Assembly (NCBI GenBank): GCA_944327135.1
Contig: CALVGQ010000004.1
Location: 1 to 49,873 of the forward strand
DNA: 49,873 nucleotides
Direction: 5' to 3'
Source of the DNA: an uncultured Erysipelotrichaceae bacterium
GTDB taxonomy: Bacteria; Bacillota_I; Bacilli_A; Erysipelotrichales; Erysipelotrichaceae
Part shown: positions 22,509 to 49,410 of the stretch, one piece after another
How positions within the stretch are numbered: the first letter of the stretch is position 1
Layout: the number at the start of each line of letters is the position of its first letter
Made by a program: the position numbers and the translations under genes
Notes under the pieces: model-generated
What the model was told of the DNA's origin: nothing
Databases searched by the model: none
What the model saw: the letters and a program-made list of their open reading frames with translations, nothing else

Positions 22509-23447
22509 CTATAAAGTGACCTTATTTCGATATTCCACCATTTCCGATTCGTTGGCATAAATATAGTGTCCAGGAAGAACCTCCTGCCAACTCCGCGGAT
22601 CCGTCTTGGAATCTTCTTCCATTCCAGAATAGATCAGCAGCTTTTTATTCTTTTCAATCTGCGGATCCGGCATAGGGACCGCCGAAAGCAAAGACTGGGT
22701 ATAAGGATGCAGTGGATTTTTAAACAGCTCCTGCGTGGAGGCCATTTCAACAATACGTCCCTTGTGAATGACCGCAATGCGATCTGAGATATACCGAACA
22801 ACTGACAGGTCGTGGGCAATAAATAAGATGGTCAGTCCGGTTTCCCGCTGAAATTTTTTAAGTAAATTCAATACCTGAGCTCGAATAGAAACATCCAGAG
22901 CTGAAATCGGTTCATCGGCAATCAGCAGCTTTGGTTCCATCACCATCGCCCGGGCAATGCCAATCCGCTGGCGCTGACCGCCGGAAAACTCATGAGGATA
23001 ACGGGAGGCATGTTCTTCCAGCAGCCCCACGCTTTTCAGGGCATCCACCACTTTCTGATGGCGCTCGGCATCACTGTGATACATGTGAAAATTGCTCAGG
23101 CCTTCTGATACGATGTAGTCAATCGTGGCCCGTTCATTAAGAGAAGCCGCTGGATCCTGAAAAACCATCTGAATGTTCCGGATTACCCAACGGTCGGTTT
23201 CCTTATCCAGCTTGCCGTTGATTTTTTTCCCTTTATACAGGATTTCTCCTTTGCTGGTCGGATTGATGCGAAGAATCGCCCGTCCGATTGTTGTCTTTCC
23301 TGAACCAGATTCTCCTACCAGTGAAAAGGTCTCGCCTTCATAAAGATCAAAATTGGCATCCTGGACCGCCACAAATTCTTTCTTCCCATTTTTAAACGTG
23401 ACTTCAAGATTTTTTACTTCAAGGATTTTTTCTTTATTCTCCGCCAT
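22509..23447 (-). CDS. oppF: Oligopeptide ABC transporter ATPase OppF
   Basis: A 312-residue ABC ATPase of the OppF/DppF type, which with OppD powers peptide import. Walker [14 protein letters not shown] (about residues 42-54), signature [16 protein letters not shown], Walker [15 protein letters not shown] and the C-terminal oligopeptide-transporter extension ([20 protein letters not shown]) are all present. It overlaps the oppD stop by 14 bases, with an AGGAGG site. It is the last gene of oppABCDF. Confidence 0.95.
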
Positions 23448-24504
23448 AATATCCTCCTTCCGGACGAATCATCTGCAGAATACGTTCATGCAGGTTGCGA
23501 ATTGCTTTCGGCGGTTCCACTTTAGGAGCGCGCGGATCCAGCAGCCATGTTTTCGCAAAATGCGTTTCGCTGATCTGAAACATTGGCGGTTCTTCTTCAA
23601 AATCAATTTTCATCGCATAAGGATTGCGTGGTGCAAACGCATCTCCTTGAATAACGTCAAACAAACTCGGAGGGGTCCCTGGGATCGCATAAAGATCCTC
23701 TCCCTTGATTCCCAGCTGCGGCAAAGAAGATAAAAGGCCCCAGGTATACGGATGACGCGGATCGTAAAAAATTTCTTCAACCGTGCCATATTCGACGATT
23801 TGTCCGGCATACATGACCGCTACTTTATCTGCCACATTCGCTACCACACCCAGATCATGCGTGATATAGACAGTCGTGAAACCATATTCCTGAGATAAAT
23901 CCTTGATCAGCTGGACGATCTGTGCCTGGATGGTGACATCTAGAGCCGTCGTTGGCTCATCACAAATCAGAATTTTCGGACGGCAGGCCAAGGCAATCGC
24001 AATAACGATACGCTGCCGCATTCCTCCAGAATACATAAAAGGATATTCGTCATAGCGCTCTGCAGCATTGGCAATGCCGACCCGCTCCATTAGTTCCACT
24101 GCCATTTTTTTGGCTTCTTCTTTGGACTTTCCCTGATGCTTGATGATGACCTCAGAAATCTGGCTGCCAATCGTCTTGACCGGATTCAATGAAGTCATAG
24201 GATCCTGAAAAACCGTCGCAATCTTTTTACCGCGAATTTTTTCCCATCCTTGGTCATTTTTAATTTTTAAAAGGTCTTCCCCTTCAAACAGGATTTCCCC
24301 ATGGGTCACCTTGCCGTTGGTATCCAGCATCCCTGTAAACGTTTTAGTGAAGACCGATTTCCCCGACCCTGACTCACCGACAATGGCAATGGTTTCATCT
24401 TCAAGCAGATCCAGCGAAACCCGGCGGATGGCCGTCAACACCCGGCTTCTGACCTGAAATTGTACCTCCACCTCTTTAGCTGATAATAATACTTTCTTTT
24501 CCAT
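23434..24504 (-). CDS. oppD: Oligopeptide ABC transporter ATPase OppD
   Basis: A 356-residue ABC ATPase. Walker A is [12 protein letters not shown], the signature is [15 protein letters not shown], Walker B is [14 protein letters not shown], and the C-terminal oligopeptide_HPY region is [18 protein letters not shown] chose the ATG at 24504 because AGGAGT lies 6 bases upstream. The segment between Walker A and the signature matches OppD proteins. It pairs with OppF and sits 10 bases after oppC. Confidence 0.94.
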
Positions 24505-24514
24505 GATCTTACTC

Positions 24515-25450
24515 CTATTGCATGTGTGTCTTCGGGTCACTGGCATCTGCCATGGTCTGCCCCACGATATACAGCGATACAGAAATCAGGGCACTGATGG
24601 CAACCGGAATCCAAAATAAATACCCTGCCGACTGCATGTATTGCGAATATTCCTGGATCATCTTTCCCAGCGTCTGATCGGTCTGCCCTACTCCTACTCC
24701 CAAATAAGACAGGAAGACTTCATAGGAAATAAAACTTGGAACATCCCGTGAGATCATCGTTACAATGACCGAGATCAAATAAGGCAGCACGTTATGCAGA
24801 ATGATTTTAGACGTTGGCGTTCCCAGGCAGCGGGAAGCCAGATTATATTCGCGGTCTCGAATGATCATGACCTGAACACGAATAAAATACGCCGTTCCCA
24901 GCCAGGAAGTACAGGAAAGCGCAAAAATCAGCTGTGGTATTCCAGAGCCCAGGACATACACCAAGACCATCACAATCAAAACAAACGGAATATTGGCAAC
25001 GATGTTGTAGACTTCAAGCATCACCGTATCCATTTTCCGCGAATAGCCCCAGAACGCGCCGACGATCACCCCCAAGACTGTCGTAATCATAGCCGCCGCA
25101 AAGGAAATCAACAAAGAATTACGAGTCCCCAGCCAAACCGCATCAAACAGTTCTCGGCCAATGTTATCCGTTCCAAACCAATGAGCAGCACTCGGACGCA
25201 GAAAATGTGTCGAAAAATCATTGATTGTTGGAACATTCAGCGGATCGTATCCGCTAATCATCGGCTGAAGAATGGAAAGCACTACGATCAGCCCTGAAAT
25301 GATGAGCATGAGAATAGCTGGCTTGCTGCTGAAAAAGCGACGAAAGACGCTTTTCCAATAAGAATACTGCGGAGCTGCAATGTGTTCGCTTTCTTCCTGA
25401 TGAAGAGTGACAAACTGAAAACGAGGATCCATTTTTTTCTTTTCTTCCAT
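24515..25450 (-). CDS. oppC: Oligopeptide ABC transporter permease OppC
   Basis: A 311-residue inner-membrane permease with an N-terminal cytoplasmic tail and about six membrane segments. The DppC-type binding-protein-dependent transport fold is seen in AHWFGTDNIGRELFDAVWLG, and the EAA loop region is ASRCLGTPTSKIILHNVLPY. The ATG overlaps the oppB stop (TGATG). It forms the membrane channel with OppB. Confidence 0.94.
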   Translation of the reverse strand: MEEKKKMDPRFQFVTLHQEESEHIAAPQYSYWKSVFRRFFSSKPAILMLIISGLIVVLSILQPMISGYDPLNVPTINDFSTHFLRPSAAHWFGTDNIGRELFDAVWLGTRNSLLISFAAAMITTVLGVIVGAFWGYSRKMDTVMLEVYNIVANIPFVLIVMVLVYVLGSGIPQLIFALSCTSWLGTAYFIRVQVMIIRDREYNLASRCLGTPTSKIILHNVLPYLISVIVTMISRDVPSFISYEVFLSYLGVGVGQTDQTLGKMIQEYSQYMQSAGYLFWIPVAISALISVSLYIVGQTMADASDPKTHMQ

Positions 25451-26931
25451 CAGCGAGAACCTCCTTTGCTTGACAACTTGATCCGCGGATCAATTTTTGT
25501 AATCAAAAGATCGCCAATCAAAAGCGCAAAAACGGACAAAGCTGTAAAAATAAACGTCAGTGTAATAACCATCGAAATATTGTTGGCCTTGATCGCATCC
25601 GGCAGCATTTTGCCCATTCCAGGAATCGAAAATACCGATTCTGTAATCACAGAACCGCTGATACACAAAATGATCGAGCTTGGAATTCCCTGAACAATAG
25701 GAATGATCGCATTGCGTAAAATATGACGATTAAAAATCTCTTTTTGACTCAGTCCTTTAGCCTTAGCAAATTTTACATAATCCGAGTTCGACTGATCCAC
25801 CATATACCGCCGTGTCCAGATCATCAAGCTGGCCGTGCTCAAAAGAGCCAGCACAATGACCGGCATCACGTAAGAGCGCAGATCCGTAAAACCATACTGT
25901 GGAAACTTATCGGGCAATCCCAATGCATAGCCAATCTGTCGGGCAAAGAAAATAAAAGCCAAGGACGGAACGGCAATCATAAAGTTAATGTAGACCGTTC
26001 CCAGTTTATCCGGCCACTGATCCTTCTTTCTTGCCATATAAATTCCTGCCGGGATGGAAATCAAATAGGCCAGCAACAATCCCAGTCCTCCGATAATATA
26101 AGACATGTTGATCATGGAAGGACTCTTGTAATTATTGGCACAGTTCGCATAATTGGAATTGAATTTATTCTGATCCAGATGATCAATCGTGGCAGAAGGT
26201 TTGTATTGACAGGCATGCAGATTCATGGCCGTTGTCCCCGTCTGTCCTGTTTCATACACAACTTCCCGGGTATCCAGTTCTCCCTGACCACTGCTGATGA
26301 CATCCCAGGTATCCAATCCAGAATACGTCGGATAGCTGATTCCAAAATTCAGCGTAATCCAGTTTTGATGAATAAAGGGAAATGAACTGTCGAAATAGAC
26401 CAGATATTGATAGTTGCATCCGCTGCATTGAATGGCAGGGACTCCATTGTAATCCTTTTCGATGTAAATTTTTCGTTCCAGATCAGGATTATCATCATCG
26501 ATCACTTGATTCGGGCTATCTATTTGGATAAAATTTGCAAAAAAGTTCAGGACCAGCTCATGCGGCAGATAACTGCGCGTTGCATACAACAACCCATTTG
26601 TAAATTCTTCAAAGACATAGCCTTTTTTTTCATATTCAGCTTTCAGTTCTTGGGAAGCTGCAGAACCTGCTTCCATACAGCGATCATAGTCTTCGCTCAG
26701 CCGACAAAGATCCTGCTGCTGAACAAAGTCCAGGTAACCGAGATCCTCCAGCTTGGTATTTTTATAAACTGCGATTTCATCCGGTTTTCCAGCCAGCTTG
26801 ATCAGGATGCTGTCATTTTTAAATACCTTGGATTGCGGAATCATTAAATAAACCATCAAGATTACGATCGAAACAACCGCCATGACGGAAAGAACCGATC
26901 GGATAACCCGTCCCAGTATGTACTGCTTCAT
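25450..26931 (-). CDS. oppB: Oligopeptide ABC transporter permease OppB with large external insert
   Basis: A 493-residue permease where ordinary OppB proteins are about 305-320. The first membrane helix (about residues 8-30) is followed by about 250 residues of hydrophilic sequence before the second helix (MSYIIGGLGLLLAYLISIPAG). The rest is standard, with KAKGLSQKEIFNRHILRNA as the EAA loop and SGSVITESVFSIPGMGKM near the end. The inserted part lies outside the membrane and carries several cysteines (DLCRLSEDYDRC, CSGC, NANC-like spacing), suggesting a folded domain that may touch the large OppA. A hairpin separates it from oppA. Confidence 0.93.
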   Translation of the reverse strand: MKQYILGRVIRSVLSVMAVVSIVILMVYLMIPQSKVFKNDSILIKLAGKPDEIAVYKNTKLEDLGYLDFVQQQDLCRLSEDYDRCMEAGSAASQELKAEYEKKGYVFEEFTNGLLYATRSYLPHELVLNFFANFIQIDSPNQVIDDDNPDLERKIYIEKDYNGVPAIQCSGCNYQYLVYFDSSFPFIHQNWITLNFGISYPTYSGLDTWDVISSGQGELDTREVVYETGQTGTTAMNLHACQYKPSATIDHLDQNKFNSNYANCANNYKSPSMINMSYIIGGLGLLLAYLISIPAGIYMARKKDQWPDKLGTVYINFMIAVPSLAFIFFARQIGYALGLPDKFPQYGFTDLRSYVMPVIVLALLSTASLMIWTRRYMVDQSNSDYVKFAKAKGLSQKEIFNRHILRNAIIPIVQGIPSSIILCISGSVITESVFSIPGMGKMLPDAIKANNISMVITLTFIFTALSVFALLIGDLLITKIDPRIKLSSKGGSR

Positions 26932-26960
26932 TGTTTCACCATACTTTCTAATTAGTAAAA

Positions 26961-26988
26961 TTAAGGGATTGATTGCTCAATCCCTTAA
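26961..26988 (-). terminator. Intercistronic hairpin between oppA and oppB
   Basis: Minus-strand TTAAGGGATTG/CAATCCCTTAA stem with an AGCAAT loop followed by a weak U-tract (TTTTAC). It probably gives partial termination or stabilises the oppA mRNA, so more OppA is made than OppBCDF. Confidence 0.65.
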
Positions 26989-27012
26989 TCTTCACCATTC
27001 TATTGGAAAAGC

Positions 27013-28965
27013 TTATTCGCCCTTTTCCCACGCCGCTTTCGCCGCATTGTACTGTTCTACAGTAACGATATCATTTTGCAATTCCATATACTTGTAGCTG
27101 TAATCATAACAGATTCCATAGACACCGTAAGGGGCAGTGAATGGAACAATCTTAGAAACAAGCATCCCGCGCAGCTGCATCTGCTGAGGCAAATAAATTC
27201 CTTCGGCAACCAGATATGCATCCGCCTGAGCATAGGCTTCATAACGGGCATCCAGATCGTCTTTGATCGCATCGGCAGCATCGATCAATTCCTGATAGTG
27301 CAGCAAGCCAGACTGCTCAAAGGCCGCATCGTCTTCGGCATTAGTACCATAAGGATACAAACCAATCGTGTGCAGATAAGAACCATTATAGATATCAAAA
27401 ACATCACAGAAGCTCTTTGGATCTCCATAATCCGGACCCCATCCACTGAAAGTATTGATATCATAATCAGCCATGGCCGGATCTTCATTATAGAAGCAGG
27501 TGTTATACACATCATCGCTGGATTCCATCTGCAGCGCAATCAAAATCTGTCCGTTCGTATTGGTTTCAATACTGTTCTTCATGGAGTTGCCGCGGTTGAC
27601 ATAAATTGGAGAATCATCGCTGATGACCTGAACATCCAGGGTAACCGGGAACTGAATACCATCGGCTTTGGCTTTTTCAATATATTCCAAAGCCAGCTCA
27701 GGATTATAGAACGCGTCAATACCATCGTCCAGATTAGTATCGGTTCCAGTCAGCTCCTGATAATATTTGGTTACCAGCTGGCCATAAGTCGTTCCATCGC
27801 TCTTTGTTACAATCGTCGGGACATTATTCATATTCCGCATCATCGAGATCGAAACATCTTCTGAAGCGGACTGCTTTAAATAATCCAGACGGCCATAAGC
27901 ATGCAAAAGAGCCAGTCGGAAATTCTTATTCAGGATCGCATTTCTGGTATTTTCTTTTTCAGCATCCGTCGTGTGCGCCGTATCTTCATAGATCTTCCGG
28001 TTAAAATTGAAATTGATTCCGAAAGAAGAACTGTTCGGCATGGTCGGATAAGCATTGTCTTTATATTTTTCAACATAGCTGTCATAATCTTCCCAAACCG
28101 GTGACAGAGAAGCAGAGGCATACACTCCTGCCTCAAACTGCTTGATGTTGCTGTAAACATCAGAACCATCATCATAGAACAGGTTTACTTCGGTGATGTG
28201 AACATTATCCAGATCCCAGTAATTTTCATTGGCCTTCATTGAAATCTTGGATTTGGCATCCATCGTTGTCAGGATAAATGGCCCGTTATACAGGATCGAA
28301 TCCGCTTTAGGGGTACCAAACTCACAGCTGTTTTTATCCGGAGATCCTAACGCACATCCTGCTCCTTTGGAATTCAAGAAATCTTCATTAATTGGATAAA
28401 GGATCGAATACAAGCTCATCGTATGAAAATACGGAGTAGAGCCTGTCAGCGTATATTCTAACGTATAATCATCCAGTGCTTTGACACCGACTTCTTCCCA
28501 CTCTGCTGTTCCATTGACATAGGCATCCAAATTTACAATCGTGTCCTGAACCAGATTCAGCGTGTTGCTGCTGAAATCCGCAGCATGATGAAGACCTGTA
28601 ACAAAGTCCTGAGCTTTGACTTCTGCATAAACCTCACCGGTTGCGGTAACCCAATTTACGCCCTGGCGAAGATGGAATGTCCAAACCGTTGCATCTTCAT
28701 TGGATTCATAGCTTTCTGCGATCGACGGAACAATGTTTCCATAACGGTCATTTTCCAAAAGTCCATCCAGAAAATTGTTGAATACCTGAGAATCGGTTGC
28801 TTTGTCGGTCACCAGATAATCCATGTTGTCAACATCTGTTTGGTAAAAGTTGTTGTAGACAGTTGGTGCTTCTGATCCGTTGCCTGCATTTCCTTCATTG
28901 CTGGAGCATCCGGCAATACCCAAGATCATAGCAGCGCATAAAAACGCTTTGAGTAATTTCTTCAT
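27013..28965 (-). CDS. oppA: Oligopeptide-binding lipoprotein OppA
   Basis: A 650-residue extracytoplasmic solute-binding protein (SBP_bac_5 family). The N-terminus is a lipoprotein signal with lipobox (LLKAFLCAAMILGIAGCSSN), so it should be anchored outside the membrane. Typical segments are FNNFLDGLLENDRYGNIVPS, SYESNEDATVWTFHLRQGVN and YNGPFILTTMDAKSKISMKA. It has a GGAGGG site, and a consensus promoter sits 37 bases upstream. It is larger than most OppA proteins, matching the enlarged OppB. It delivers peptides to OppBC, and peptide nutrition or peptide sensing are both possible. Confidence 0.95.
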   Translation of the reverse strand: MKKLLKAFLCAAMILGIAGCSSNEGNAGNGSEAPTVYNNFYQTDVDNMDYLVTDKATDSQVFNNFLDGLLENDRYGNIVPSIAESYESNEDATVWTFHLRQGVNWVTATGEVYAEVKAQDFVTGLHHAADFSSNTLNLVQDTIVNLDAYVNGTAEWEEVGVKALDDYTLEYTLTGSTPYFHTMSLYSILYPINEDFLNSKGAGCALGSPDKNSCEFGTPKADSILYNGPFILTTMDAKSKISMKANENYWDLDNVHITEVNLFYDDGSDVYSNIKQFEAGVYASASLSPVWEDYDSYVEKYKDNAYPTMPNSSSFGINFNFNRKIYEDTAHTTDAEKENTRNAILNKNFRLALLHAYGRLDYLKQSASEDVSISMMRNMNNVPTIVTKSDGTTYGQLVTKYYQELTGTDTNLDDGIDAFYNPELALEYIEKAKADGIQFPVTLDVQVISDDSPIYVNRGNSMKNSIETNTNGQILIALQMESSDDVYNTCFYNEDPAMADYDINTFSGWGPDYGDPKSFCDVFDIYNGSYLHTIGLYPYGTNAEDDAAFEQSGLLHYQELIDAADAIKDDLDARYEAYAQADAYLVAEGIYLPQQMQLRGMLVSKIVPFTAPYGVYGICYDYSYKYMELQNDIVTVEQYNAAKAAWEKGE

Positions 28966-44949: not shown

Positions 44950-45312
44950 GAATTTTCACACTCTGTAAGCCATGTTCTGTCCCCTGATTCAGGGTGGCAA
45001 CCATTTATCTACATGCCTAATGACATGTCCCTGCATCCCTTCAATTTGTTCTGCAGGATTCCCCTACCAAATTTGGGTTTCTCGCTTGCGGGGTTTATCG
45101 CGTTCCACTCCGGCAGTTTCCCGCCGGACTCCGTCACTGTGACACTTTTACAGACATCCGCCTTAGCCTGAGGCCTTAGGCATTCTGCCAGCCGTCAGTT
45201 TCCTGCCTGGCCTTATGAATTAGGCCAGCACAAACACTACAATCATCGCAGATTGTGCGAGCATGGACTTTCCTCTGGACGAATCCAGCGGTTGCCCGAA
45301 TGTTAAAATCCC
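44949..45312 (-). ncRNA. rnpB: RNase P RNA, type B
   Basis: About 364 bases. The signature blocks are GAGGAAAGTCCATGCTCGCA near the 5' end, GACGGCTGGCAGAA-like and AACCCAAATTTGGTAGGGG in the middle, and ACAGAACATGGCTTACAGAG near the 3' end. The outer P1 helix is formed by GGGATTTT (45305-45312) and AAAATTCC (44949-44956), which I used to set the ends. Type B architecture is expected in Bacillota. The 5' arm overlaps the end of gpsB. The catalytic RNA trims tRNA 5' leaders. Confidence 0.95.
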
Positions 45313-45705: not shown

Positions 45706-46878
45706 TCAAATTTGCTCCAAAGCACAAAAGTAACAGTCTATCAGTCTTTCACAATAACGATCCTGCAGCATCCGTCGGCAAAATTGTCCACGGCAAATTG
45801 GATAAATGCAGCAATGCATGCAACGCTCATCGGGTTCGTTTAAAAAAAATCGTTCAATCGTTTCGTGGGCAAGACGAAATGAACCGCCATTTTTTAATTT
45901 TCCAACCTGAATCGGAGGATTCAACGTACAACTGCAGCATTTTAAAATCTGTCCCTTTAAATCAACCATCAGGGAGTGCCTTCCCATTGAAAAACAGCTA
46001 ATCTTCTCAGCCAGAAAAAGTTTTTCCGAAAATGGTATACTACTTTTCTTTCTAACCCCAGTCATCCCCGGTAAAACATTCCGATCCCAAAAACATTCTG
46101 TGTTAAAGAGAATATTAAATCGATCATCAACTTGAAAAAGTTCATCCATCCATTTTTTTAGTAAATGTCTTTTCCTTTCCTCAAGATTGATTCGAAAAAA
46201 GCATTGAAATTTAAATGAACTATGATGAAGAAAATCAATTATTTTTTCCAAGTTTTCTTTTTCGTTTGGATCGGTCAGCTCCTGCTCAGTAAGCTGGATC
46301 TGAAATTCATTCACTTCTTTTTCAAGCAGCCTTTTTATCATAGAAACAGCCAAGGCTTTCCCAGGAATCATAACCCCTATTTTTAAATCCACTTGTTTCC
46401 GATTCATGGCCTTTTTTAACCATTCGATCTTCTGCATGCACCTTTCAGCAAAAGAAAGGGCCTCTTTTCCAGATATAGTTAATTCAATAGCTTTAACTCC
46501 ATACAAATACTCATATTTGTTTATGAACCGAAAAATATTTCGGCACATTTTCTCGCTTGAATACGCCCCATCCAAACTCGTTTCTACTGGATCCGTCAAA
46601 ATAACGACCCGCATTTTTTCAGGCTCTTTGTACAAACGCTGATTAGCCATCTGAACTTCAAGATGCCCCATTTCCTCTATTAGCATTCCTTTTTCTACCA
46701 TCTTCTTCATGATTAAGCTATTTTCATTAAAATGAAACCTTCTTCTTGAACTCATCACATCGATTTCATGCAATTCTTTCGAATCCACAATAGCAAGCAA
46801 TTCATCATTCAACGTATTATGCAACAAATACATCCCATTTCTTCTTGACAAATTACAGTATTCTGAAAATCTCAGCAT
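45706..46878 (-). CDS. SPASM-domain protein with degenerate radical SAM core
   Basis: A 390-residue protein laid out like radical SAM/SPASM peptide maturases. The N-terminus (MLRFSEYCNLSRRNGMYLLH, NTLNDELLAIVDS, KKMVEKGMLIEE) matches the leading region of such enzymes. The middle has a barrel-like pattern. The last 90 residues are a cysteine-rich SPASM-like region (LKCCSCTLNPP, ERCMHCCIYPICRGQFC, YCERLIDCYFC). The CX3CX2C motif that should follow the N-terminal region is missing: the place reads VVILTDPVETSLDG, and the usual GGEP reads ISGKEA. It probably binds Fe-S clusters but cannot do radical SAM chemistry. I chose the ATG at 46878 for its GGAGG. It follows the HTH-TPR regulator by 95 bases. 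Confidence 0.75.
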   Translation of the reverse strand: MLRFSEYCNLSRRNGMYLLHNTLNDELLAIVDSKELHEIDVMSSRRRFHFNENSLIMKKMVEKGMLIEEMGHLEVQMANQRLYKEPEKMRVVILTDPVETSLDGAYSSEKMCRNIFRFINKYEYLYGVKAIELTISGKEALSFAERCMQKIEWLKKAMNRKQVDLKIGVMIPGKALAVSMIKRLLEKEVNEFQIQLTEQELTDPNEKENLEKIIDFLHHSSFKFQCFFRINLEERKRHLLKKWMDELFQVDDRFNILFNTECFWDRNVLPGMTGVRKKSSIPFSEKLFLAEKISCFSMGRHSLMVDLKGQILKCCSCTLNPPIQVGKLKNGGSFRLAHETIERFFLNEPDERCMHCCIYPICRGQFCRRMLQDRYCERLIDCYFCALEQI

Positions 46879-46973
46879 CTTATCTACCTCCGAAATAAGT
46901 AACTGTAGCATATAAAAAAAGCAGAAAAAATAAAGGCCCAATATAAATTTAAAATCACAAAAAAATGGAAACT

Positions 46974-48212
46974 CTAATGCAGATTTTCCATTATTTCATA
47001 ATATCGAAAAGCTTCTTCATATTTTCCTTTTTCCTTCTTACAGTCAATCAGCTCTTGATATAAAAGTCTCATAATATCAATATCGTGCTGCTGAGAAGAA
47101 TGCGTAATATATTGAATTGTTTCTTCCAACGCCTTTTCTTGATTTTTCTTTTTAAGAAGGATATTTTCCGTCATTTTTAATAACCTATATTCCAAACAAC
47201 GTTTATTAAGTATTTCGCTCAATCCTTTCTCTACCCAACTTTTTGCTAACATCGGCTGTTTCAATTTATATAATGCAAATGACCTATGGAAATATAAAAT
47301 ATTATCTTTACGCCCGTAACTTATTGCTTTCTCAACATTTTCAATCACATTTTCATATTGCTTAGTCAATAAATAAATCCAAGAGAGATTTTGATAGTTT
47401 ACTGCAATAATAGGATGATTATCTAAAGTTTTTGCTGCAACAATTGCTTCTTTACAATACTGAATTCCGTTTGAATATTCTTTTAAATGAAAACAAACCA
47501 GCCCTTGATGAGATAAGCATTGAGCTGTTCTTACAAAATTATTCAAATCACTAAATAAATTTTTAGCCTTCATATTGTATACAAATGCTTCTAGATCTTT
47601 TCCTCTTTTTATCCCAATTATTCCTAAATGATAAAAAATCATAGAAAGATTTTCATTGTTATTCATTATCCGTAATGCCTCTTTAAGATAATGATAGGCT
47701 TCAGTCAAATTATCTGAATTCTTATAATATATTCCTAGATATAAATAATAAATCTGTTTTAATCGGCCCTCAAAATGGAAATCAATCTTTTTTAGAATCG
47801 ATCTGATAAACTCATCTTGTTCATTATCCTTATCAAATAAAACATTGTAAATAAATAAAAGTAAAATATATTGTGGGAATATTAAAGTATTCTCAATAGT
47901 AGCCTCTTCAGCATTTAAACATTTAAATATTCTTATTGCATCATTGTCTCTACAATAGAAACAATCTTGAACAAACTGATTGAATTTTTCAATAAATGAA
48001 TTTATATACTCCACATCATAGAAATAATTGACTCCTAATGAAGTTAAAATTTTATGATCCGTATCAGGATTGATGCTTAAAAAATTGACTTCATCCTCCA
48101 ATTTTGTCAAATACTGCACAGAAATTCCACATTGTTCACATACATCTTTCTTGGAAATTTCTTTATAAAGACGAATTGTTTTATAATATAAACCCTTTTC
48201 ATTCTTTTTCAT
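46974..48212 (-). CDS. HTH-TPR regulator, RRNPP-like
   Basis: A 412-residue protein. It has an N-terminal helix-turn-helix (KTIRLYKEISKKDVCEQCGI, SVQYLTKLEDEVN) and a long run of TPR-like helical repeats (YYLYLGIYYKNSDNLTEAYH, FYHLGIIGIKRGKDLEAF, QNLSWIYLLTKQYENVIENV). This is the layout of Rgg/PlcR/PrgX-type cytoplasmic receptors that bind imported signalling peptides. Without a structure I cannot exclude a non-peptide TPR regulator. It has a GGAGCAGGGG site. It lies between a gene for a secreted Cys-rich peptide and the SPASM-domain gene, in the same direction. An oligopeptide importer is also in this window. Codon use is more A+T-rich than in the housekeeping genes. Confidence 0.78.
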   Translation of the reverse strand: MKKNEKGLYYKTIRLYKEISKKDVCEQCGISVQYLTKLEDEVNFLSINPDTDHKILTSLGVNYFYDVEYINSFIEKFNQFVQDCFYCRDNDAIRIFKCLNAEEATIENTLIFPQYILLLFIYNVLFDKDNEQDEFIRSILKKIDFHFEGRLKQIYYLYLGIYYKNSDNLTEAYHYLKEALRIMNNNENLSMIFYHLGIIGIKRGKDLEAFVYNMKAKNLFSDLNNFVRTAQCLSHQGLVCFHLKEYSNGIQYCKEAIVAAKTLDNHPIIAVNYQNLSWIYLLTKQYENVIENVEKAISYGRKDNILYFHRSFALYKLKQPMLAKSWVEKGLSEILNKRCLEYRLLKMTENILLKKKNQEKALEETIQYITHSSQQHDIDIMRLLYQELIDCKKEKGKYEEAFRYYEIMENLH

Positions 48213-48255
48213 GCTACCCCTGCTCCATTTATTTCTTTTATCATATCATGTGAAT

Positions 48256-48290
48256 AAAAAAAAGGGGATATAAGTATAAAACTTAGATCC
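48256..48290 (-). terminator. Terminator after the Cys-rich peptide gene
   Basis: Minus-strand GGAT..AAGT-TTTAT-ACTT..ATCC imperfect hairpin followed by eight T. It separates the peptide from the regulator gene, so part of the transcription should stop here. Confidence 0.65.
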
Positions 48291-48297
48291 GACTTTT

Positions 48298-48489
48298 TTA
48301 ATCTTGGCAGAAAGCGCATCCGCCGCCATAAGTAACGATTCCACCACACTCTTCATCACATTCATGCGTGCAGCCTTCACCAGTAACTGGATCATAGCCA
48401 CATTCTTCGTCATGAACATGAGTGCATCCTGGAACGCCGCCTGCATTTAACATTGCAGCAATCATCACCATAATAGCCAATCTTTTCAT
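48298..48489 (-). CDS. Small exported Cys/His-rich peptide
   Basis: A 63-residue protein with a short basic start and hydrophobic segment (MKRLAIMVMIAAMLNAGG) ending VPGC, which may be a signal peptide or an atypical lipobox. The mature part of about 42 residues has seven Cys and several His, Asp and Glu: CTHVHDEECGYDP, CTHECDEECGG, then GGGCAFCQD. The CTHxHDExCGY unit resembles metal-binding-looking repeats in large surface proteins of gut clostridia, here as a stand-alone mini-protein. The start has AAGGAGG 7 bases upstream. Seven cysteines beside a SPASM protein recall Cys-rich peptide precursors of RiPP systems, but the spacing does not match one I know. Function unknown. Confidence 0.78.
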   Translation of the reverse strand: MKRLAIMVMIAAMLNAGGVPGCTHVHDEECGYDPVTGEGCTHECDEECGGIVTYGGGCAFCQD

Positions 48490-48511
48490 CTTTCTTTCCT
48501 CCTTACGGTGC

Positions 48512-48528
48512 ATATTCTAATTGAATAT
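48512..48528. promoter_or_regulatory. Inverted repeat before the Cys-rich peptide gene
   Basis: Perfect 6-5-6 inverted repeat ATATTC-TAATT-GAATAT about 20 bases upstream of the start codon, where it overlaps -10-like sequences (TAGAAT, TATATT on the minus strand). It is a candidate operator for the nearby HTH-TPR regulator. Confidence 0.45.
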
Positions 48529-48609
48529 AAAAAAGATTGAAGAGAAAATGTAAATTTAATTTTTTATAAAATTCATATTAAAAGCTTTAAAAAACTGTTA
48601 TTTTTTTTT

Positions 48610-49410
48610 TTAATCCACCTCAAAACTAAATCCAGAGCCCACTTCAACCACTGGTAACAATTGCAGCATCTGTGCCTTGGCTTTTAAAGAAACACAGTGA
48701 CACGGATAAAGAAATGACACTTTTTTTTGTTGCAAATAGCAAATTGTCGAAGTCAGTCTTTCCCCCGTTTCAAACAAATGAAAACCGCCAATTATAGCGT
48801 AAATATTCTGTTCATTAAAGACTTCACAAGCCACTTCAGAAATGTTGCATATTCCGCTGTGAGAGCAACCTGTCATGATAACGATACCATGGTTACACTT
48901 GACCGCAATCGCAGTATCATCCAGCATAAAGTCCGGTCGATCATTCATCATTCCAATAGAATATCGATTTTCAAATTTACATTTAGGGGGAATCTCACCA
49001 AGAAACAAAATATTTTTTACAATCGAAAGCGGTTTTTTCGAAAGATGAAGAACGGCCCCTTTTTGTTCTAGATCCTCAGCAGAGAAAGGGGAACCAATGT
49101 GGATTCCATTTTCTATCCTTTTTTCAAAAGCAGCAGGATGTGCATAAATATGAACTCCTTCCAAACCAAATTCTTTCTCAAAAGAAACCAGTCCACCTGT
49201 ATGATCATTGTGCCCATGAGAAAATACAATTTTTTTAATTTTTGAAAGATCGATCCCTATTTTTTCTGCATTGCGGATAAAGACATCCGAATAACCGCAA
49301 TCCAATAATATGGATTCTCCATCCGATTCGACATAAAGCGAAAAAGCGGGTTCACCAAGGTAATACTGGTCGATCAAGGTATGATTATCTGCTAAAACAA
49401 TACAACGCAT
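48610..49410 (-). CDS. MBL-fold metallo-hydrolase
   Basis: A 266-residue cytoplasmic metallo-beta-lactamase-fold protein. The metal-binding motif HxHxDH is in FSHGHNDHTGGLV (about residue 64), a later His is in GCSHSGICNI, and GGFHLF follows; IYPCHC-like LYPCHCVS gives the last ligand region. The pattern matches the subgroup annotated as 7,8-dihydropterin-6-methyl-4-(ribofuranosyl)-aminobenzene 5'-phosphate synthase-like hydrolases, mostly of unknown substrate. The ribosome-binding site is weak. It is upstream of, and codirectional with, the Cys-rich peptide, and may or may not belong to that system. Confidence 0.87.
   Translation of the reverse strand: MRCIVLADNHTLIDQYYLGEPAFSLYVESDGESILLDCGYSDVFIRNAEKIGIDLSKIKKIVFSHGHNDHTGGLVSFEKEFGLEGVHIYAHPAAFEKRIENGIHIGSPFSAEDLEQKGAVLHLSKKPLSIVKNILFLGEIPPKCKFENRYSIGMMNDRPDFMLDDTAIAVKCNHGIVIMTGCSHSGICNISEVACEVFNEQNIYAIIGGFHLFETGERLTSTICYLQQKKVSFLYPCHCVSLKAKAQMLQLLPVVEVGSGFSFEVD

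Follow-up and report, generated by a model that had tools for sequence, protein, structure and literature searches.

A recurrent pair of a Cys/His-containing propeptide and an RRNPP-type receptor points to a probable branch of peptide quorum sensing in Erysipelotrichaceae

Peptide quorum sensing by receptors of the RRNPP superfamily is well characterized in bacilli, streptococci and enterococci as well as in some clostridia. Its mature pheromones are linear, comprise about 5-10 residues that are usually located at the C-terminus of a precursor, and bind in the groove formed by the tetratricopeptide repeats (TPR) of the receptor. We know of no conserved Cys/His core in the precursors Phr, NprX, PapR and SHP. 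Here we describe a locus from the Erysipelotrichia, a class common in the gut of animals and humans, which resides on a stretch of 49,873 nucleotides from an uncultured Erysipelotrichaceae bacterium (GenBank assembly GCA_944327135.1, contig CALVGQ010000004.1) that is referred to as the window. In this locus, the gene of a short Cys-rich propeptide precedes that of a protein combining a helix-turn-helix (HTH) region with a TPR domain. Both genes form a true pair, and it is likely that they act as an RRNPP-type quorum-sensing system with a pheromone contained in the tail of the propeptide, whereas the neighboring gene of a SPASM-domain protein would be the leftover of a pheromone-controlled cluster for a ribosomally synthesized and post-translationally modified peptide (RiPP).

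The closest described systems, NprR-NprX and Rap-Phr, share central features with this locus. The receptor contains a TPR superhelix together with an HTH region as found in NprR, which is reflected in profile and fold matches over nearly its full length, it is accompanied by an adjacent gene of a secreted propeptide, and an oligopeptide permease (Opp) encoded in the window is a candidate importer. The locus differs from both systems in the position of the propeptide gene, which in pairs of the window type precedes the receptor gene and in most cases abuts or overlaps its start, in the conserved Cys/His core of the precursor, and in a receptor without assignment to a named subfamily. The elements of the proposed system in the window are the following:

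48298..48489, minus strand: propeptide gene, 63 amino acids (open reading frame (ORF) with ribosome-binding site (RBS); 12 homologues adjoining receptors)
48442..48489, minus strand: putative Sec-type signal sequence MKRLAIMVMIAAMLNA (heuristic hydropathy test)
48343..48426, minus strand: conserved Cys/His core CTHVHDEECGYDPVTGEGCTHECDEECG (alignment of 11 homologous propeptides)
48301..48342, minus strand: C-terminal tail GIVTYGGGCAFCQD, which may contain the mature pheromone (suggested by the variable tails of homologues and the precursor at locus L105)
46974..48212, minus strand: HTH-TPR receptor of the RRNPP type, 412 amino acids (TPR Pfam matches, NprR/Rap profile, AlphaFold (AF2) model, fold matches)
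22509..28965, minus strand: complete oppFDCBA oligopeptide permease operon (ORFs; OppC above cut-off; OppF and OppA matches; SBP_bac_5)

The pairing of propeptide and receptor is recurrent. When the peptide alone was used as query against 273 genomes of the family, eight homologues were identified in six of the 272 other genomes, all eight located directly upstream of an HTH-TPR homologue, and since this search was blind to the receptor it provides an independent test of the linkage. A profile search across 395 genomes of the class added one further peptide from a second family within the order, whose gene precedes that of a receptor (E 2e-74) by about 15 bp. Including the window and the loci L043, L045 and L108 (loci are designated by L, genomes by G and contigs by C), the total amounts to 13 pairs, with carriers such as Dielma fastidiosa, Traorella massiliensis and an uncultured Traorella. 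The distance between the stop of the peptide and the start of the receptor ranges from -20 to +15 bp in 12 pairs and is 85 bp in the window. The association extends beyond this type of peptide: among the 86 receptor homologues whose upstream region was sufficiently long, 22 are preceded by a secreted ORF of 40-100 residues with an RBS that ends within 30 bp of their start. Among other large ORFs of these loci, this applies to 3 of 208 (Fisher 2e-10, a p-value that is not exact since the sequences are interrelated), and two of these three control matches are in fact peptide genes located next to a receptor. Receptor homologues are present in 51 of the 273 family genomes, often with several per genome. 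In other receptor clades, the position of the propeptide gene is taken by different secreted precursors, almost all of which contain Cys and which cluster on the receptor tree (types CVLEYNEDGT, CECHC, ACEALSN and singles). No peptide homologue was found in phages, plasmids or viral contigs and the system thus looks chromosomal.

Two more families of Cys-containing secreted precursors, ACEALSNDEQVCSINKDGECEC (L138, L145, L154, L163) and CECHCEDCTVEECECPCH (L128, L135), were observed upstream of HTH-TPR genes. Downstream of several pairs, we found genes of small secreted proteins in which the signal region is followed by a motif similar to I-x-P-[YF]-A (L041:6906-7340, L060:1929-2642, L064:9860-10201), which are possible outputs of the system.

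The propeptide contains seven Cys within its 63 residues and is preceded by a strong RBS (AAGGAGG at 48504-48498). Because its 12 homologues share the conserved core and each adjoins an HTH-TPR homologue, the comparison of sequences identifies it as a genuine gene rather than a chance ORF. In an alignment of 11 homologous propeptides, a signal sequence, called by a hydropathy rule and in the window composed of a KR motif followed by a hydrophobic stretch, leads into the core CTHVHxExCGxxGxxCTH (in short C-x-H-x-H-x3-C-G...C), which is followed by a variable tail with endings such as LNDEHAPN, PLGDEHVPY, GIDHEKPGL, IGGRYGD and FGHFGD. The closely related pair L060/L064 shows no difference in the core, its six changes being distributed between the signal sequence (three) and the last seven residues (three), whereas at L105, the sister of a pair with a full precursor, the slot is filled by an ORF of 28 residues consisting of a signal sequence and the tail GYGSDL only. 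These three observations favor the C-terminal tail, which is thus probably the pheromone. The core has the hallmarks of an extracellular module, since repeats of its motif also occur in large surface proteins, among them a secreted protein of 1461 residues from Acetivibrio ethanolgignens (L074:3674-8056), which contains several CxHxHDExCGY repeats and was for this reason rejected as a pair. The propeptide with its motif of this type has no Pfam match.

The assignment of the receptor to the RRNPP superfamily is based on both its sequence and its predicted fold. When 13 receptors are combined into a profile, this aligns with NprR over positions 66-411 (E 2e-16) and, across most of the TPR region, with RapH (2e-14), RapF, RapJ and Rap3T. 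The AF2 model of the window receptor, obtained from an alignment of seven sequences (predicted local distance difference test, pLDDT, 83.8), is all-helical and shows an HTH region followed by a TPR superhelix, and in a fold search of the PDB ranks 1-24 are all occupied by Rap or NprR structures. For the window protein itself, the HTH match (HTH_3, E 0.17) does not reach the threshold, but relatives reach values of up to 1e-14 and the N-terminal helices are present in the model. With about 400 residues combining HTH and TPR regions, its kinship to Rap and NprR and the adjacent gene of a small secreted propeptide, the protein carries several of the features by which members of the superfamily are recognized, and it may bind a peptide. 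A paralogue in the same genome, located between the genes of a RecD2-like helicase and a permease-like protein (L066:6982-8250, G000:C25), is possibly an orphan receptor. Both an exported Cys-rich peptide of 63 residues and a regulator with the layout of a peptide receptor had been proposed from the DNA in an earlier note, and both are supported by the described signal sequence, RBS, homologues, TPR Pfam hits and profile and fold matches. One of the options raised there, that the peptide is the signal of the regulator, is probably correct in light of the recurrence of the pair in two families of the order and of the enrichment of secreted ORFs upstream of receptors. A wide occurrence of regulator and SPASM gene in the absence of the peptide, which the note had named as counter-evidence, is not observed: the SPASM gene is not widespread, and the regulator is encountered both with and without a recognizable peptide.

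In the proposed mechanism, the propeptide would be exported by the Sec pathway and cut outside the cell, thereby releasing a short piece of its variable C-terminal end. This tail would be re-imported by an oligopeptide permease, for which the product of the oppFDCBA operon in the window is a candidate, and it would bind to the receptor in the cytoplasm, within its TPR superhelix, whereupon the receptor may switch nearby promoters, with that of its own operon coming first. The Cys/His core would in this process serve as an element of the propeptide, perhaps as a metal- or disulfide-stabilized module for processing or display, and not as signal. A bolder extension, which we regard as doubtful, is that zinc binding or the disulfide state of the core gates the release of the tail, so that the receptor would read the metal or redox state of the gut in addition to cell density; if true, an RRNPP system would in this way receive a novel type of input.

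Several observations weigh against a tail pheromone that is sensed by the paired receptor. In the receptor tree, 59 of 85 proteins are without any recognized peptide type, some of which may have short or leaderless signals that are missed by the hydropathy rule. This rule, rather than SignalP, also underlies the assignment of signal peptides. The window receptor shares only about 20% of its residues (18-22%) with receptors that have the same type of peptide, and its closest relative is the paralogue from the same genome (35%), which lacks a recognizable peptide. Moreover, the tail in the window contains two Cys (CAFC), which is unusual for a linear pheromone, and it is the core and not the tail that is the most conserved part of the propeptide. 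The latter could imply that the core itself is the functional product, such as a peptide that is secreted to bind metal or to act in redox reactions, with the HTH-TPR protein sensing something else, as would also be in line with the repetition of its motif in large surface proteins such as the one at L074. We consider this unlikely, since the closest structural kin of the receptor bind re-imported peptides, other clades keep the same architecture with unrelated precursors and the precursor at L105 has retained the signal sequence and tail only. The linkage could alternatively be a relic of the common descent from one mobile operon without functional coupling, and a transfer is suggested by the AT-rich composition of the genes, with a GC content of 27.4% in the receptor gene compared to 44% in the rest of the window. 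This explanation appears most improbable, as pairing and translational overlap have been kept between receptors that share only 18-22% of their residues with that of the window and as different precursors fill the same slot.

The quorum-sensing pair is followed in the window by a gene whose relation to it has to be considered separately. The features next to the pair are:

45706..46878, minus strand: SPASM-domain, probably degenerate radical S-adenosylmethionine (SAM) protein (pseudo-rSAM), 390 amino acids, a neighbor of the pair (ATG start; loss of motifs, SPASM Cys kept)
48610..49410, minus strand: hydrolase of the metallo-beta-lactamase (MBL) fold, a neighbor with no evidence for membership in the system (Pfam Lactamase_B 1.4e-14)
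44961-45303, minus strand: class B RNase P RNA (RF00011, E 1e-89), immediately downstream of gpsB

In the SPASM protein, the CxxxCxxC motif of radical SAM enzymes reads VETSLDGA and the GGEP motif reads GKEA, and with both motifs lost it cannot act as a radical SAM enzyme of the known kind. The C-terminal SPASM cysteines are kept and the frame is open over 390 residues; an alternative TTG start would extend the gene to 46941. The SPASM assignment itself is weak (TIGR04085 E 0.002, TIGR04280 3e-4), and the protein resembles the Clo7bot/geopeptide-type maturases (TIGR04334, TIGR04280) and pseudo-rSAM proteins (TIGR04347) in its SPASM region and a likely partial barrel, while differing from these maturases in the lost motifs and in scores that are far below cut-offs. 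A profile comparison with three radical SAM enzymes is weak (probability 1.3%, E 0.039), with the GGEP region aligned, and a model based on the single sequence (pLDDT 45) contains a partial beta/alpha barrel with radical SAM enzymes (Elp3, 5why, ChlB, EpeE, HemN) among its best fold matches, which are only suggestive. No full-length homologue was found in 315 other genomes of the order, none at the other pairs with an HxHxxxCG peptide, and no similarity beyond the SPASM domain itself in the searched genome and viral contigs. No separate precursor ORF or ABC transporter gene was detected between receptor, SPASM gene and gpsB, and two other radical SAM/SPASM genes of the same genome resemble, by eye, anaerobic sulfatase maturases and thus offer no obvious partner maturase. 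Judged by its sequence, the protein is probably a degenerate radical SAM protein, and it does not belong to the conserved pair. Of the SPASM protein with a maturase-like N-terminus described in the earlier note, the SPASM region is thus retained, if weakly, whereas the absence of the radical SAM Cys motif had gone unmentioned there, and a role as conserved component or competent maturase is not supported, as the protein is a singleton in the order, lacks this motif and is missing at other pairs.

The connection between such receptors and radical SAM enzymes is nevertheless found elsewhere, as four other receptor loci (L172, L182, L165 and L166) contain intact radical SAM genes. At L172 (5678-8746, G021:C39), a secreted peptide and an HTH-TPR receptor are followed by a Clo7bot-like radical SAM enzyme (E 4e-85), a Cys-rich ORF of 52 residues GNCSCTRNSGTVTNCTKNASCLGYMIC and the ATPase and permease of an ATP-binding cassette (ABC) transporter, which together look like a complete RiPP cluster with the short ORF as candidate precursor. 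At L182 (2543-8638, G065:C116), a secreted peptide, an HTH-TPR receptor, an AlbA-like radical SAM enzyme and two ABC exporters are arranged in one operon. The gene order at both loci equals that of the window. At L165 (5218-9510, G088:C16) and L166 (7629-12317, G112:C1), the HTH-TPR gene is divergent from a short secreted peptide that is followed by ABC exporters, and this peptide (KPCE[IV]HHxxDLCWM...YG[ND]E) overlaps a PapB/SCIFF-like radical SAM gene by 26 bp, with the copy of the enzyme at L165 shortened to 343 residues. In light of these intact clusters beside related receptors, the SPASM gene of the window is plausibly a decayed output gene. The wider idea of the earlier note gains partial support from these four loci.

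In streptococci, clusters of RiPPs made by radical SAM enzymes (RaS-RiPPs) are controlled by Rgg/SHP, with an RRNPP-type regulator and its pheromone being encoded beside a radical SAM/SPASM maturase (PMC13361665, PMC8092268). The arrangement of receptor and pheromone next to the maturase is shared by L172 and L182, whereas in the window the radical SAM protein is degenerate, precursor and exporter are missing and the receptor best matches Rap/NprR and not Rgg. By analogy to the streptococcal clusters, a decayed RiPP cluster under pheromone control is the most economical reading of the window. The seven Cys of the propeptide and the adjacency of both genes could instead suggest that it is itself a RiPP precursor modified by the SPASM protein, with the HTH-TPR protein merely regulating the cluster, as also brought to mind by the overlap of secreted peptide and radical SAM gene at L165/L166. 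Such a role appears very unlikely for a protein without the motifs required for radical SAM chemistry as known, whose gene is missing at all 12 other HxHxxxCG peptides, and for a peptide that carries a Sec signal sequence in place of a typical RiPP leader and is not accompanied by an exporter. The SPASM protein might also be a live but non-catalytic partner, whose N-terminal region and SPASM clusters bind peptide or receptor and thereby tune the signal. The long open frame, the retained cysteines and the existence of pseudo-rSAM/SPASM proteins as a named category (NCBIfam TIGR04347) are compatible with this role, which we still judge distinctly unlikely, as the lack of homologues in the order leaves no sign of selection over time and as the gene is found at no other pair.

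The pair is probably an undescribed RRNPP-type branch of quorum sensing in Erysipelotrichaceae, which would follow the working principle of the superfamily. RRNPP_detector, for which 21 novel candidate subfamilies were predicted (PMC10075063), and a structural phylogeny of RRNPPA proteins (PMC12700828) appear to follow the same logic of a receptor combined with a small secreted ORF. The main texts of both do not mention Erysipelotrichia, and their supplementary lists may include some of the receptors. In our literature search, we found no paper that ties RRNPP systems to this class. The several types of precursors and the many receptor homologues provide a collection of pairs that can be tested directly, and receptors located beside radical SAM RiPP clusters in gut bacteria give a clue to what switches these clusters on. 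They also raise the question of why a pheromone precursor would contain a conserved Cys/His module.

The remaining features concern the surroundings of the pair. A scan for consensus promoters yielded matches no more frequent than expected by chance. According to the ORF listing, the four codirectional genes noticed earlier are real and are all found on the minus strand next to gpsB, in the reading order MBL hydrolase, propeptide, HTH-TPR receptor, SPASM protein and gpsB. Pfam confirms the MBL and TPR domains. The inclusion of the MBL hydrolase in the system was rejected, as no homologue was found near any other fetched receptor locus. The hydrolase is thus best described as a neighbor at the upstream end of this array, which on its opposite end leads via gpsB into the gene of the RNase P RNA.

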